In this document: one piece after another, positions 27,561 to 33,135 of the stretch
Numbering within the stretch: the first letter of the stretch is position 1
Layout of the letters: every line of letters starts with the position of its first letter
Source of the DNA: Paenibacillus dendritiformis
GTDB lineage: Bacteria > Bacillota > Bacilli > Paenibacillales > Paenibacillaceae
Length of the DNA stretch: 64,000 nt
NCBI RefSeq assembly: GCF_021654795.1
Contig: NZ_AP025344.1
Location: 3,534,501-3,598,500, forward strand
Direction of reading: 5' to 3'
The notes under the pieces: generated by a model
Databases searched by the model: none
What the model was told of the DNA's origin: nothing
What the model saw: only the letters and a program-made list of their open reading frames with translations
Translations under genes and position numbers: made by a program

Positions 27561-30359
27561 TTATTCGTTCTTCAGTCCGCGCGCCCGCTTCATGAACGCG
27601 TGCAAGGCGTTCATCGCCTCCAGCGGCGTGAGCGAGAGCACGTCGACCTCCCGCAGCTCGGCGATCAGCTCGTCGGCCTGCCGGTTCCGCCGCTGCTCCT
27701 CCTTCGCGGGCGGAGCGGCGTGTGCAGTTGGGGCAGCAGAAGCTGCGGATTCCTCCCAGCCGAAGAGCGACAGCTGCTCGACGGCCCCGCTTGCGGCCGT
27801 TCCCGCTTCCGCAACCGGCGCCGCAGCCAGCCCCTCAGCCAGGCCCTCCTCTTCTGCCGCCGCCGGCTCGGCCTGCTCCCGCACCCGATCCCGCTGCCGT
27901 TCCTGCCGCTCCGGAACCGTACGGCCGTTGTCTCCCGGATCGGGTTCCGCGCCAGTCTCCCGCAGCGCCCCCGTCTCATAGGTTTTCAACAGATCATAGG
28001 AGCGGCGGATAATCGAATCCGGCAGCCCGGCCAGCTTCGCGCAGTAGATGCCGTAGCTGGTGCTCGCCGCTCCCGGAATCAGCTTCCGCAGGAAGGTCAC
28101 CTGATTCCCGCTCTCCTGAACCGCCATGCAGACGTTCCGCAGTCCGCCGAGCCGTTCCTCCAGATGGGCCAGCTCGTGGAAATGGGTCGATACGAGCGCC
28201 TTGCAGCCGATCTCGTCGTGGACGAACTCGATCACGGCTTGCGCAATCGACATCCCTTCGCTCGTCGACGTTCCCCGCCCGAGCTCGTCGATAATGACCA
28301 GACTCCGGCGCGTCGCCTTCGCGGTCATCACCTGGATATCCATCATCTCCACCATGAACGTGCTCTGGCCGCCGATCAGATCATCCGCGGCGCCGATGCG
28401 GGTGAAGATCCGATCGACAATCGGCATGACGGCCCGGTCGGCCGGGACGAAGGAGCCCATCTGGGTCAAAATCGACATCAGCGCGACCTGGCGCATATAG
28501 GTGCTCTTCCCGGCCATGTTCGGACCGGTAATGAGAAGCATGCCAGCGGCCTGCTCCTCCAGCGCGGTATCGTTCGCCATGAACGAGCCGCTCTCCATGA
28601 CCGCTTCCACCACCGGATGACGGCCCCCCTCGATATGCATATCATAACCGTCGGTAACCTCCGGGCGGACGAAGCGGTGCGCCGCGGCGACCGCCGCAAG
28701 CGATTGATAGACGTCGATCTCCGCGATCGCCTCGGCCAGCGTCTGCAGCCTCCGGATCTGCTCGCCGATGCGCTGGCGGAGCTGGCTGAACAGCTCATAT
28801 TCCAGCCCGATCATTTTATCCTCCGCTTCCAGGATGAGCGCTTCCTTCTCCTTCAGCTCCGCCGTAATGAACCGCTCGGCGTTCGCCAAGGTCTGCTTCC
28901 GCTCGTAGCGCCCCTCCGGCAGCGCCTGCAGATTCGATCGGGTCACCTCGATATAATATCCGAACACTTTGTTGTAGCCGACCTTCAGCGACTTGATGCC
29001 CGTCTCTTCCCGCTCGCGGCGTTCCAGCTCCGCGATCCACTGCTTGCCGTTCACGCTCGCTTCCCGCAGCTTGTCCAAATACGCGTCATAGCCCGCCTTG
29101 ATAATGCCGCCGTCGCGTACCGACACGGGCGGCTCGTCGACGATGGCCCGAGCGATCCATTCCACGATATCCTGGCAGTCGTCCAGGCCGGACACCCGCT
29201 CGCGCAGCGTCGCCGAATCAGTCTCCGCGCAGCACCGCTTCAAGCCGGGCACGCGCTCCAAGGAATGCTTCAGGGCGATCAGATCGCGGCCGTTCGCCGT
29301 GCCGAACGCGATCCGGCTCACGAGACGCTCCAGATCGTAGACCTGATGCAGCTGCTCCCGGATATCCTCGCGCCAGATCATATGATGGTACAACGTATCC
29401 ACCGCTTCGAGCCGCGCCTCGATCGTCCGCCTGTTCATCAGCGGCTTGTCGATCCAGCGGCGCAGCAGCCGGCCTCCCATCGACGTCTGCGTCCGATCGA
29501 GCAGCCAGAGCAGGGAGCCTTTCTTCGCCCGCTCGCGCACCGTCTCCGTCAGCTCCAGATTGCGGCGGGTGAACGGATCGAGGACCAGATATTGATCCGG
29601 CTCATACGTCCGCACCTGCGTCAATTGGGACAAGGAGCGCTTCTGCGTCTCGGCCAAATACGACATCAGCAGCGCGAGCGCCTGGCGGCGTTCCGGATCG
29701 AGCCGCATCCACGCCGCCTCGCCGAATTGCCGCTGGGCGAGCGCCTCGTCCCGCTTCGTCCAAGGGGTGAACAGAACCGGCTTGCTCCACGCCTTCGTCA
29801 CCGGGCGCGCCTCGTCCAGCACCCGCTCCATGCCGATAATCTCGGTCGGCGCATACACGTTCAGCTCGTCCAGCAGCCACGACTGGCCGGCCGGGGCGGA
29901 AGTGGCCGTCACTTCGCCCGTGGACAGATCGCAGGCGGCCAGCGCGTACATGCCTTCATGCTCCGTCAGACAGAGCAAATAATGATTGGCCTTCTCGTCA
30001 ATCATCTTCCCTTCCATAATCGTGCCCGGGGTAATGATGCGGACGATCTCGCGGCGCACGACCCCTTTCGCGGCCGACGGATCTTCCATCTGCTCGCAGA
30101 TGGCCACCCGATAGCCCTTCTCGATCAGCCGCTGTATGTAACTGTCGGCGGAATGATACGGAACGCCGCACATCGGGATCCGGTCTTCCGTCCCGCTGCT
30201 GCCCCGTCCGGTGAGCGTAATCTCCAGCTCCTTGGCCGCCACAATCGCGTCGTCATTGAACATTTCATAGAAATCGCCGAGGCGGAAAAACAAAATCGCG
30301 TCCTCCGCCTGCTGCTTAATCGCCAAATATTGCTCCATCATCGGCGTCATCTTCGCCAT
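27561..30359 (-). CDS. mutS: DNA mismatch recognition ATPase MutS
   Basis: 932 residues. The mismatch-binding N-terminus has the FYEMF motif (Phe wedge and Glu), then connector, lever and clamp domains, and the ATPase with GPNMAGKST, the VDRIFTRIGA block, DELGRGTST and STHFHEL. Beyond the ATPase is a C-terminal extension of about 130 residues, Ala/Glu/Arg-rich, which contains EQLSLF, a fit to the beta-clamp binding motif QLxLF known in B. subtilis MutS. It ends in a helix likely used for tetramerisation. ATG 30359 follows GGAGGGTG. Confidence 0.97.
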   Translation of the reverse strand: MAKMTPMMEQYLAIKQQAEDAILFFRLGDFYEMFNDDAIVAAKELEITLTGRGSSGTEDRIPMCGVPYHSADSYIQRLIEKGYRVAICEQMEDPSAAKGVVRREIVRIITPGTIMEGKMIDEKANHYLLCLTEHEGMYALAACDLSTGEVTATSAPAGQSWLLDELNVYAPTEIIGMERVLDEARPVTKAWSKPVLFTPWTKRDEALAQRQFGEAAWMRLDPERRQALALLMSYLAETQKRSLSQLTQVRTYEPDQYLVLDPFTRRNLELTETVRERAKKGSLLWLLDRTQTSMGGRLLRRWIDKPLMNRRTIEARLEAVDTLYHHMIWREDIREQLHQVYDLERLVSRIAFGTANGRDLIALKHSLERVPGLKRCCAETDSATLRERVSGLDDCQDIVEWIARAIVDEPPVSVRDGGIIKAGYDAYLDKLREASVNGKQWIAELERREREETGIKSLKVGYNKVFGYYIEVTRSNLQALPEGRYERKQTLANAERFITAELKEKEALILEAEDKMIGLEYELFSQLRQRIGEQIRRLQTLAEAIAEIDVYQSLAAVAAAHRFVRPEVTDGYDMHIEGGRHPVVEAVMESGSFMANDTALEEQAAGMLLITGPNMAGKSTYMRQVALMSILTQMGSFVPADRAVMPIVDRIFTRIGAADDLIGGQSTFMVEMMDIQVMTAKATRRSLVIIDELGRGTSTSEGMSIAQAVIEFVHDEIGCKALVSTHFHELAHLEERLGGLRNVCMAVQESGNQVTFLRKLIPGAASTSYGIYCAKLAGLPDSIIRRSYDLLKTYETGALRETGAEPDPGDNGRTVPERQERQRDRVREQAEPAAAEEEGLAEGLAAAPVAEAGTAASGAVEQLSLFGWEESAASAAPTAHAAPPAKEEQRRNRQADELIAELREVDVLSLTPLEAMNALHAFMKRARGLKNE

Positions 30360-30420
30360 TAAACACCCTCCGATACCTGACCTTGAATCGTCCTCATTAT
30401 ATCAAAAAAAGAGCGCGGAC

Positions 30421-31983
30421 TCACGCCTTCGCCAAGCCTTCCTTCCGGATGGCCCATGCGTGGCGGATATCTTCGCGCTCATTCCAGCGCCAGCCCGAAT
30501 CGATGCGGCGGGCGAAGGAGCGGATAAGGCGCAGCTCCTCCCCGCTTCCCGTTGGCGCTCCGGCCGAGACGGCTTCAAATTCCAGCGCGGCCATCAGTCC
30601 CTGCACCGCCGCCCGGGCAACCGGCAGCAGCTCCTCCGCCGGCCGGCCGGCATGATAGGCGCGGATGACCGGATCGCGCAGACTGTCGCGCCGCTTCAAG
30701 CGATGCTGGAGCCTGGCGGCCGCGTGCAACAGGGCCAGCACTTCCCGCGCCAGCTCGGGCGAGAACAGGAAGCTGGGGAGCGTCCGGTATTCGAAGCCGC
30801 CGGCCCCGCCGTACTCTTGGAGGCGGACGTCGCCGAACGTTCCGTAGCGGGGTCGCCGCGGCGCGCCGGACGGATCCTCCAGCGCCGCGACCGGCAAGGC
30901 GACATACGTGTCCAGCACCCGCGCGAACTCGGACGTGAGCGGGAGCCCGCTCAGATGGATATGCCCGCCGAGCGGGAAGCGGCCCAGCGGCAAGCCGCCG
31001 GCAAGCCACTCCAGCGCGGCGCCGTCCTCCGACGCTTCGAGACAGAGACGGGCCTCTTCCATCGCGGCGGCGATATGATGCACGAGCTCCTCCGGGCCCG
31101 GGGCCGGATCGGGGCGCAGCTCCATCAGCGGGAAGCGCACCCTGCCCCCGATGCGCACCGCATCGCAGCCCGCCCGGCCGCCCCGGGGCAGGTAGCGGCT
31201 CGCCGCAATCAGCTTGCGCCGGCGCGCGTCATGCAGCACGAGCTCCGCGTCGAGCCCGATCAGGAGCTTGCCGGGCCGGGCGCGGGCGGATTGCTGTTCG
31301 GCGGCCGCCTTGGCCCAGGAAGCGGCATAGCTCTCCAGCACCCATGCCGGCAGCGGCGCCGGAACGGGCTCCACCCGCTCGATGGCGTCGCCGGGACGCG
31401 GCTCCTCCAGGACGCCGGCGGGCCCGTCGGTCTCGTCCGCCGCGCGGCGGCAGCGAAGCGTGACCGCTCCCGTGTCGCGGCCGAGCGCATAGACCGCCCG
31501 CACCGCCAGCCGGGCCAGCCGCAAATAGGGCGGCCTCGTCCAGCCTTCCAGCGGACGGTAGAAATAGCCGCCCGTCGGCGACTGGAAGCAATGCGCCGCG
31601 GCGACCGCCTCAAGCTGGCTGACCCAGAAGCAGACCGTGCGCACGAAGCCGGCGCCGTCCGGGCCGCTCCCCGGCTCCGCGCCCCAGGCGGCCCGGTCGA
31701 GCACGGGCAGGCCCCACAGCCGCAGCCGCTCCCGCATCGCTGGCCCGCTCCACCGCCCGGCGTGGCGGTTCAAAATCATCCGCCCGCCGCCTGCGGAGCC
31801 AATCCCCGCTGCCGTGTCCGGCTGACGCGCAGCCTCGGGCGCCTGCAGCCAGAGGACATCGACGCCAGGCTGCGCTCCGGCGGCTTCCGGACGCTGCGGC
31901 GCGGCGTAACGCCGCCATTGACGGTATCCGGCGGCATGATCGGTGTACAGGCGGACACCGCCGCCCAATTCCAGACGCTGCAT
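30421..31983 (-). CDS. Predicted COOH-NH2 ligase (phiEco32-like amidoligase type 2)
   Basis: 520 residues. The N-terminal 220 are poorly recognisable, Arg/Ala/Gly-rich, with NRHAGRWSGP and a GYFYRP block. The second half has the pattern of amidoligases of the glutamine synthetase-like fold: GLDAELVLHD, FPLMELRPDPAPGPEEL, GGHIHLSG and FEYRTLPSFLFSPELAREVL, giving the expected Glu, Asp, His and Arg residues for ATP and metal binding. Such enzymes are predicted to join amino groups to carboxyl groups of peptides or proteins; none in this context has a known substrate that I recall. It lies between cotE and mutS, with a terminator after cotE, so it has its own transcript start or is read with mutS. 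ATG 31983 follows GGGGGACAAGG. Confidence 0.75.
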   Translation of the reverse strand: MQRLELGGGVRLYTDHAAGYRQWRRYAAPQRPEAAGAQPGVDVLWLQAPEAARQPDTAAGIGSAGGGRMILNRHAGRWSGPAMRERLRLWGLPVLDRAAWGAEPGSGPDGAGFVRTVCFWVSQLEAVAAAHCFQSPTGGYFYRPLEGWTRPPYLRLARLAVRAVYALGRDTGAVTLRCRRAADETDGPAGVLEEPRPGDAIERVEPVPAPLPAWVLESYAASWAKAAAEQQSARARPGKLLIGLDAELVLHDARRRKLIAASRYLPRGGRAGCDAVRIGGRVRFPLMELRPDPAPGPEELVHHIAAAMEEARLCLEASEDGAALEWLAGGLPLGRFPLGGHIHLSGLPLTSEFARVLDTYVALPVAALEDPSGAPRRPRYGTFGDVRLQEYGGAGGFEYRTLPSFLFSPELAREVLALLHAAARLQHRLKRRDSLRDPVIRAYHAGRPAEELLPVARAAVQGLMAALEFEAVSAGAPTGSGEELRLIRSFARRIDSGWRWNEREDIRHAWAIRKEGLAKA

Positions 31984-32048
31984 CGCCTTGTCCCCCGTTC
32001 ATCGTGGTGCTCGTGATTGCCGATTGGCGGCAATCCGGCAAATTTTTC

Positions 32049-32073
32049 AAAAAAAAGGAGGGCTCCCGCCCTC
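32049..32073 (-). terminator. Terminator after cotE
   Basis: A 6-bp GC stem (GAGGGC / GCCCTC, 32058-32063 with 32068-32073) and a 4-nt loop, followed on the minus strand by eight T residues. Confidence 0.85.
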
Positions 32074-32180
32074 TTCGATGATGCTGCTGCTGCATATGCA
32101 TAAGTATGAAGTTCAACGGATGAGGGCTTCAGGATGTTATCCGGGATATCTCCGCAGGCGGTGAGGGTCTGCGGACCTAA

Positions 32181-32741
32181 TCACAACTCCTCATCCGTTA
32201 AATCCGGATCCAGATCGTCGAACTCTTCGTCCTGGATGCCGAAATCAAAATCCTTGTCTGCGAAATCGTTGCAACCGTTCGGGCAGACGCGCACACATAC
32301 CTTCGTCTCCGCTACCATCTCTACCGCGAATTCACGCTCCACGCGAATCGTAACCCCTGTCCCGGACGAGGAGACGCTGGCCTCGACGCAGTTCGGCTCC
32401 TGGATCGCCTCAGCCGATACCTCTTCCGTCGTGCGGCGATGCTTCGGATCGATATAAGACAATCCGACGAGCTCGACGTAGGATACCGTCTCCTTGGCTA
32501 CATCCGTCTGGGAGTTGTTGTCGTACGAATACCAGATGTTGATGTCGTACGTGCCGATGACCTCAATTCCATCTCCGGCTCTCACCGATTCATATTGATG
32601 GTTGATAATCCAGGCTCCCAAAATACTGGTCGGATGATGAGGCGGAGTGACGGTATGTGTAACGACGGAGAACTTGCGACCTTTGCCGCAAACTGCTTTC
32701 GTGATTATCTCACGGCAGTGGTGTTTATCTGAAATTGCCAT
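32181..32741 (-). CDS. cotE: Outer spore coat morphogenetic protein CotE
   Basis: Organises the outer coat of the endospore. 186 residues, near the length of B. subtilis CotE. The N-terminal block CREIITKAVCGKGRKFS and the central SILGAWIINHQYE...VIGTYDINIWYSYDNNSQTDVAKETVSYVE are the family hallmark. The C-terminus is strongly acidic (DEEFDDLDPDLTDEEL), as usual. ATG 32741 follows GGAGGAGGT by 7 nt; the frame opens at 32771 upstream. A CATACACT box at 32775-32782 resembles a sigma-E -10. It is followed by the predicted amidoligase and mutS; in B. subtilis, mutS follows directly. Confidence 0.96.
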   Translation of the reverse strand: MAISDKHHCREIITKAVCGKGRKFSVVTHTVTPPHHPTSILGAWIINHQYESVRAGDGIEVIGTYDINIWYSYDNNSQTDVAKETVSYVELVGLSYIDPKHRRTTEEVSAEAIQEPNCVEASVSSSGTGVTIRVEREFAVEMVAETKVCVRVCPNGCNDFADKDFDFGIQDEEFDDLDPDLTDEEL

Positions 32742-33135
32742 CGTGTGGACCTCCTCCATACAATCATTCAATAAAGTGTATGCAGGACGTGGGCGAATGT
32801 TGAATAGACAGATTTAAATATAGAGAAAAAAGATATATGCTTCGGAATCCGGCTTCTATTCCGAAGCGGCGCGGGCGCTGCGCCTGCGGTCTTTATCATG
32901 ATGCCGCGCCGGTGATATGCGGCTCGCGGCCGCCGCGCTTCTCCTTGTTGCCGCAAGAGATTCTAGCGATGCGGCATTTCCGGGAGCCGCTGTTTCTATC
33001 GCGCCTGCACTTCTTCCGCTACTCCATCTTATTGGCAACACAGCGAACAAGAAAGAGAGAGTCCGTTCCGCACCGTCATACATAGTCTATCTTTATGATG
33101 GAAGAGGCTGTCCGCATGCCATCTGGCTGGCCGTT
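32742..33135. other. Gene-free region upstream of cotE
   Basis: No convincing gene. It holds the cotE leader with a sigma-E-like -10 (32775-32782), an inverted repeat CTTCGGAAT/ATTCCGAAG (32838-32864) followed by a T tract on the minus strand that may end a transcript before cotE, and a CTGGCCGT/ACGGCCAG hairpin at about 33127-33150 that overlaps the end of the next gene and has a T tract on the plus strand. Confidence 0.5.
32775..32782 (-). promoter_or_regulatory. Possible sigma-E -10 element of cotE
   Basis: CATACACT on the minus strand, 34 nt before the start codon, fits the sigma-E -10 consensus. The matching -35 is weak (ACATT with 13-nt spacing), so this is tentative. Confidence 0.35.

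Follow-up and report, generated by a model that had tools for sequence, protein, structure and literature searches.

A COOH-NH2 ligase gene conserved beside cotE in Paenibacillales and its possible role in spore coat modification

The window analysed here, a stretch of 64,000 nucleotides from Paenibacillus dendritiformis, contains a minus-strand open reading frame at 30421-31983 that starts with ATG and encodes a protein of 520 aa, which we call LIG. The gene lies between cotE and mutS, and all three share one strand; the gene upstream of cotE is one that we take to be DUF939. The features needed for the argument are as follows.

27561..30359, minus strand: mutS, assigned with Pfam; downstream of LIG in a conserved order
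30412..30427, minus strand: terminator-like site where LIG ends, ahead of mutS, from a consensus scan only
30421..31983, minus strand: predicted amidoligase gene LIG, 520 aa
30448..31260, minus strand: predicted glutamine synthetase (GS)-like COOH-NH2 ligase domain, residues 242-512, from PF14395, conserved residues, an AlphaFold model and a fold search
31276..31983, minus strand: N-terminal region, residues 1-236, putatively a decayed, truncated ATP-grasp-like domain, on sequence evidence only
31360..31527, minus strand: N-terminal stretch of highest conservation, residues 153-208, A-x-R-A-x-Y-A-L-G-x-D-x-G-x-V ... P-x-P
32046..32116, minus strand: conserved element between cotE and LIG, with CATACTTATGCATATGC followed by a terminator-like hairpin (32058-32073) and a T-run
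32181..32771, minus strand: cotE, outer spore coat protein (PF10628, E 2.7e-82); upstream of LIG

The coding sequence of LIG appears to be maintained, because its dN/dS against three close relatives was 0.27-0.35. Analysed by part against the same relatives, the ratio was 0.22-0.29 for the N-terminal region and 0.31-0.39 for the ligase domain; for mutS it was 0.11 in one comparison.

A preliminary description of this DNA had assigned the C-terminal half of the protein to the phiEco32-like (type 2) COOH-NH2 ligases on the basis of a Glu-Asp-His-Arg pattern, and had proposed a profile search. This assignment was borne out. In Pfam, PF14395 (COOH-NH2_lig) matched LIG with E 3.8e-67 and 226.6 bits (cut-off 25) over positions 1-254 of its 254, was the single Pfam match in the protein, and had no other match in the genome of the window. 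PHROGs also returned a COOH.NH2 ligase (E 2.9e-6); NCBIfam gave no model up to E 1 and a PDB sequence search no match up to E 5. The residue pattern proved to be real, with 27 invariant columns in an alignment of 25 diverse members and with the conserved residues common to LIG and the phiEco32-like profile. We then checked 13 positions in 128 relatives, a set that takes in near relatives and second copies. Nine putative catalytic residues (D245, E247, D274, E288, R290, H341, H343, D358 and R387) were identical in 128/128, and the other four were E398 (127/128), R376 (126/128), R400 (123/128) and E369 (111/128).

To place the domain structurally, we used an AlphaFold model built on an alignment of 22 rows, comprising the window sequence, three near relatives and 18 viral relatives. 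Two further viral relatives of the 20 available, L129 and L141, lacked a suitable open reading frame and were left out, and about half of those remaining were trimmed towards the ligase domain before alignment. Residues 241-510 were modelled mostly with confidence (ten-residue means 57-96). A Foldseek search with the model returned 1tt4, a predicted glutathione synthase, first (E 2.6e-6) and YbdK next (3.2e-6), with GshF, Dop and glutamine synthetase also among the leading entries. The top VIA match was Dop, a hydrolase of GS-like fold (Z 17.7, rmsd 4.1, 273 residues aligned; all Dop structures, 17.7 to 16.2), together with 1tt4 (17.0), YbdK (16.9), plant glutamate-cysteine ligase (16.4), the pupylation enzyme PafA (15.6) and GshF (15.1). 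Identity between LIG and Dop, PafA, YbdK, glutamate-cysteine ligase and GshF was 8-17% over the aligned part. By the model, then, the C-terminal domain is of the GS/Dop/YbdK-type fold; neither the different fold nor the missing catalytic residues that the preliminary description had named as grounds against its assignment were found. LIG is apparently an intact ATP-using, amide-bond-forming enzyme.

The Foldseek and VIA matches begin only at about residues 209-239, and these searches are therefore silent on the N-terminal part, where the model had a pLDDT under 50 (residues 1-225) and four alignment rows. It had been suggested that the first 220 residues have no recognised relative, a view that profile comparisons now argue against. 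When a profile from 26 N-terminal regions was compared with the PDB, RimK (ribosomal protein S6 L-glutamate ligase) came out on top (E 9.5e-4), followed with weak scores by other glutamate ligases and D-Ala-D-Ala ligases mixed with unrelated chains. A profile from 48 N-terminal sequences gave RimK at E 2e-4, unrelated chains appearing from E 0.059, whereas a Paenibacillales-only profile gave 0.036, which is not significant. An hhalign comparison with YheC/D was weak (15.9% over 43 columns). The alignment with RimK passes over about 60 RimK residues, and some members from other classes (L035, L050, L054 and L055) carry a few dozen extra residues at this stretch. The family-wide core of the region reads A-x-R-A-x-Y-x-L-G-L-D-x-G-x-V, then P-x-P.

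ATP-grasp domains are marked by a metal-binding acidic-x-Asn motif close to the domain end. Unlike in RimK, this motif was kept in only 9/128 LIG members, and the window sequence has Arg-x-Glu at those columns. The N-terminus of LIG thus resembles a decayed RimK-type ATP-grasp domain that may have been kept for another role. Such a domain would be an addition relative to the PF14395 phage relatives, some of which are approximately the ligase domain alone (L124, 277 aa; L132, 246 aa); others have extra parts, which were trimmed. GshF, the bifunctional glutathione synthetase, combines a GS-like ligase and an ATP-grasp domain in one protein in the order opposite to that of LIG; it matches LIG in fold, but in LIG the ATP-grasp-like portion seems inactive.

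LIG is flanked by terminator-like sites, which suggest that the gene forms a separate transcription unit; they come from a consensus scan only, which gave 6 sites in 2.9 kb compared with 2.0 expected from shuffles. Between cotE and LIG, a hairpin of the form GGGC-3 to 5 nt-GCCC followed by a T-rich tail was found in 67/71 Paenibacillales sequences, several loci of which repeat a genome, and TATG lay 25-31 nt before it in 66/67. The inner stem and the TATG formed part of the search pattern, and their invariance is by construction. The outer stem pairs, which were outside that pattern, held in 39 and 40 of 40 distinct sequences (one G-T). The pattern had one copy in the genome of the window and was not found in the regions of genus g7 or of genome G157, two Paenibacillales lineages treated below. 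An Rfam search around LIG gave seven matches, all far under the gathering scores. The hairpin could be the cotE terminator, a leader or attenuator of LIG, or a small RNA.

Next, we examined gene order. The cotE-amidoligase-mutS arrangement, for which a survey had been proposed in the preliminary description, was conserved in 39/39 Paenibacillales regions fetched, with all three genes on one strand and cotE upstream; mutS was the next searched-for gene downstream of LIG in each of them, over a gap of more than 1 kb in a few. From other Bacilli families we fetched 29 LIG regions, namely 25 primary regions, sampled from 102 genomes with a PF14395 match, and four (L206-L209) picked for their long open frames. 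A cotE gene was near LIG in 25/25 primary regions, from 25 families, and in eight of these (L186-L189, L195, L197, L199 and L211) YheC/D stood between the two. Among 20 regions from other classes (18 genomes), 12 had CotE, 11 of them on the same strand, and the source genomes of the remaining eight were without any CotE match. YheC/D was present in 19 of these 20 regions, and no MutS match was found near LIG in any. In L082, CotE is flanked by two LIG matches, with YheC/D nearby.

YheC and YheD (PF14398) of B. subtilis belong, like LIG, to a predicted amide-ligase class and are neighbours or fusion partners of LIG in other lineages; unlike LIG they have the ATP-grasp fold, and in the genome of the window they form a separate tandem cluster. 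That genome has 11 YheC/D matches, five of them in tandem at G000:C1:4473003-4478535, and none of the 39 Paenibacillales regions had YheC/D near LIG. Fusions of PF14395 to PF14398 (ATPgrasp_YheCD) were found in five proteins, L206-L209 and, from another class, L068, all single open reading frames of 872-924 aa. L206-L209 had no CotE match nearby, and their genomes hold, at another place, a further PF14395 match that is similar or better.

These arrangements do not support the earlier idea that a ligase gene was inserted beside cotE. The locus is conserved across the family, the order and other Bacilli families, which argues against insertion of a phage-like gene, and a prophage or recent mobile island around LIG is likewise unsupported, the chromosomal neighbours being constant across the order. 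In B. subtilis mutS presumably follows cotE directly, as the preliminary description had it. Since cotE and LIG are kept together in Paenibacillales and in many Bacilli families, the direct cotE-mutS order, as in G157, is more simply explained as a loss. Most simply, cotE, YheC/D and the ligase would have formed an old cluster; YheC/D would then have moved off in Paenibacillales, and LIG would have been lost where cotE abuts mutS.

PF14395 was present in 134/148 genomes of the family, 279/296 of the order, 118/200 of the class and 37/299 of the phylum, which contradicts the statement that such ligases are known mainly from phages. The 14 family genomes without it were 13 of genus g7 and G082, in which contigs end about 1 kb from cotE and about 160 bases from mutS; because both genes adjoin contig ends, we took this absence as an assembly gap. 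The 17 misses in the order were 14 g7 genomes, G157 and two genomes that are 85% and 68% complete. In genus g7, both LIG and SpoIVA, the latter belonging to the core of sporulation, were missing in 14/14 sampled genomes, whereas SpoIVA was found in 18/18 other genomes tested; this co-absence represents one lineage. Genome-wide searches found no CotE in 13 g7 genomes, and the status of the fourteenth, G317, was read from its mutS region only. All 14 g7 mutS regions had neither cotE nor LIG and retained the gene usually upstream of cotE, and the joint absence of LIG and cotE may reflect a single deletion of adjoining genes.

In the phylum draw, SpoIVA was found in 36/37 LIG genomes, the exception, G635, being 61% complete. 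CotE was found in 41/299 genomes, 24 of which had both genes: CotE was present in 24/37 LIG genomes compared with 17/262 others (Fisher p 1.5e-15, with related genomes counted as independent and four CotE matches under the Pfam cut-off included). The other 13/37 had LIG without CotE, one of them, G584, with a partial, weak PF14395 match only. G157 (Paenibacillales; L175) keeps SpoIVA and cotE, the latter abutting mutS and encoding a different acidic tail at its end, and is without LIG; three other Bacilli genomes (G491, G546 and G619) also have SpoIVA and cotE without LIG. These four genomes indicate that cotE does not require LIG. No PF14395 match was found in 14 control genomes, B. subtilis among them.

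The preliminary description had considered the locus a candidate for an undescribed system, which is not supported. The Pfam entry text for PF14395 reportedly mentions a neighbourhood of the family with cotE and YheC/D ATP-grasps, and Iyer et al. in 2009 reportedly gave it the name phiEco32-like COOH.NH2 ligase type 2 and predicted that same neighbourhood. LIG therefore is a further member of a named family, to which it adds a putative decayed ATP-grasp-like domain at the N-terminus. Among open-licence papers, searched by title or abstract opening, we found none on the LIG gene. A later paper mentions ATP-grasp/COOH-NH2 ligase operons seen earlier, citing Iyer et al. 2009 (PMC4431377). YheD of B. 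subtilis is described as a protein on the coat that encloses the spore as a shell and is without known function (PMC7911427), and yheC and yheD are given as sigma-E/SpoIIID genes (PMC517825).

Comparative genomics, through the cotE linkage and the co-absence with SpoIVA, also supports the suggested link to the spore coat. LIG is kept beside cotE in many spore-forming relatives and absent from a lineage without SpoIVA, so it probably modifies coat material; that LIG is persistently accompanied by a coat gene and by further predicted amide ligases again makes coat material the likely target. On balance, we lean towards the view that LIG, together with YheC/D, is a sporulation-made, ATP-dependent ligase that forms amide bonds on a coat component organised by CotE. 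LIG would be made during sporulation in the mother cell. Its GS-like domain would turn a carboxylate into an activated acyl phosphate and join the acyl group to an amine, and together with at least one YheC/D ATP-grasp ligase LIG would form isopeptide or peptide-like amide bonds on a spore coat component whose assembly CotE organises. The N-terminal domain would be an old ATP-grasp whose own catalytic residues have been lost in most members, and would now probably act in docking, in binding the substrate or in contacting YheC/D. Mother-cell expression, the direction of the reaction, the YheC/D partnership in this organism and the coat as the site of action are what we infer. The spore coat is known mostly from B. 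subtilis, which has no PF14395 match, and a ligase kept beside cotE across an order, and in many other Bacilli families besides, speaks for coat chemistry beyond that species. For the YheC/D proteins, LIG is in addition a candidate partner and suggests a reaction that can be tested.

LIG might instead produce a soluble metabolite, a small amide or peptide that the mother cell or spore needs, and have no direct action on coat proteins. The near fold matches include the small-molecule ligases YbdK and glutamate-cysteine ligase, and the 13 phylum genomes with LIG and without CotE also fit this idea, which we nevertheless regard as unlikely given the linkage to the coat gene cotE in primary regions fetched from genomes with both genes. 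Somewhat less probable still is that LIG is an amidase or deamidase that strips coat proteins of a modification, in the way that Dop acts on Pup-tagged proteins. The conserved residues fit either reaction direction, and Dop heads the VIA matches, tied with 1tt4 and YbdK; however, YheC/D ATP-grasp genes that adjoin LIG or are fused with it suggest synthesis, and the name given to the family is that of a ligase. We consider it improbable that LIG is a coat or cell-envelope factor with a structural role and without enzymatic activity: the PF14395 scores in the genus of the window are below those of most other genera and the N-terminal domain looks decayed, but the nine putative catalytic positions are identical throughout the 128 members, the window included, and the dN/dS of the GS-like domain also speaks against it. 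A role with mutS/mutL in DNA repair, the place beside cotE being accidental, is highly improbable and disfavoured, and we do not think that mutS has a functional tie to LIG, since, despite the constant place of mutS downstream in Paenibacillales, 14/14 g7 genomes keep mutS without LIG, the other-class regions have LIG and no MutS match nearby, and terminator-like consensus sites flank LIG here.

Coat modification by LIG could be part of something older. Tentatively, and with less assurance than for LIG itself, we suggest that Bacillota spore-formers ancestrally carry a covalent coat-modification pathway, in which a GS-like ligase and several YheC/D ATP-grasp ligases, their genes lying with cotE, decorate the coat with an amino acid or peptide. 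B. subtilis would then have lost the GS-like half, and the pathway would have stayed unseen because of that loss.

We also considered the acidic C-terminal tail of CotE as a LIG-specific substrate. Tails of the D-L-D-P-D-L type are frequent among LIG-positive genomes; similar acidic tails are also present in LIG-negative CotE (L216-L218), and this feature is not discriminating. For the clostridia examined in PMC3533761, no CotE is reported in the part of that paper dealing with them. In our phylum scan, CotE (PF10628) was above the cut-off in 29 genomes outside the class of the window.
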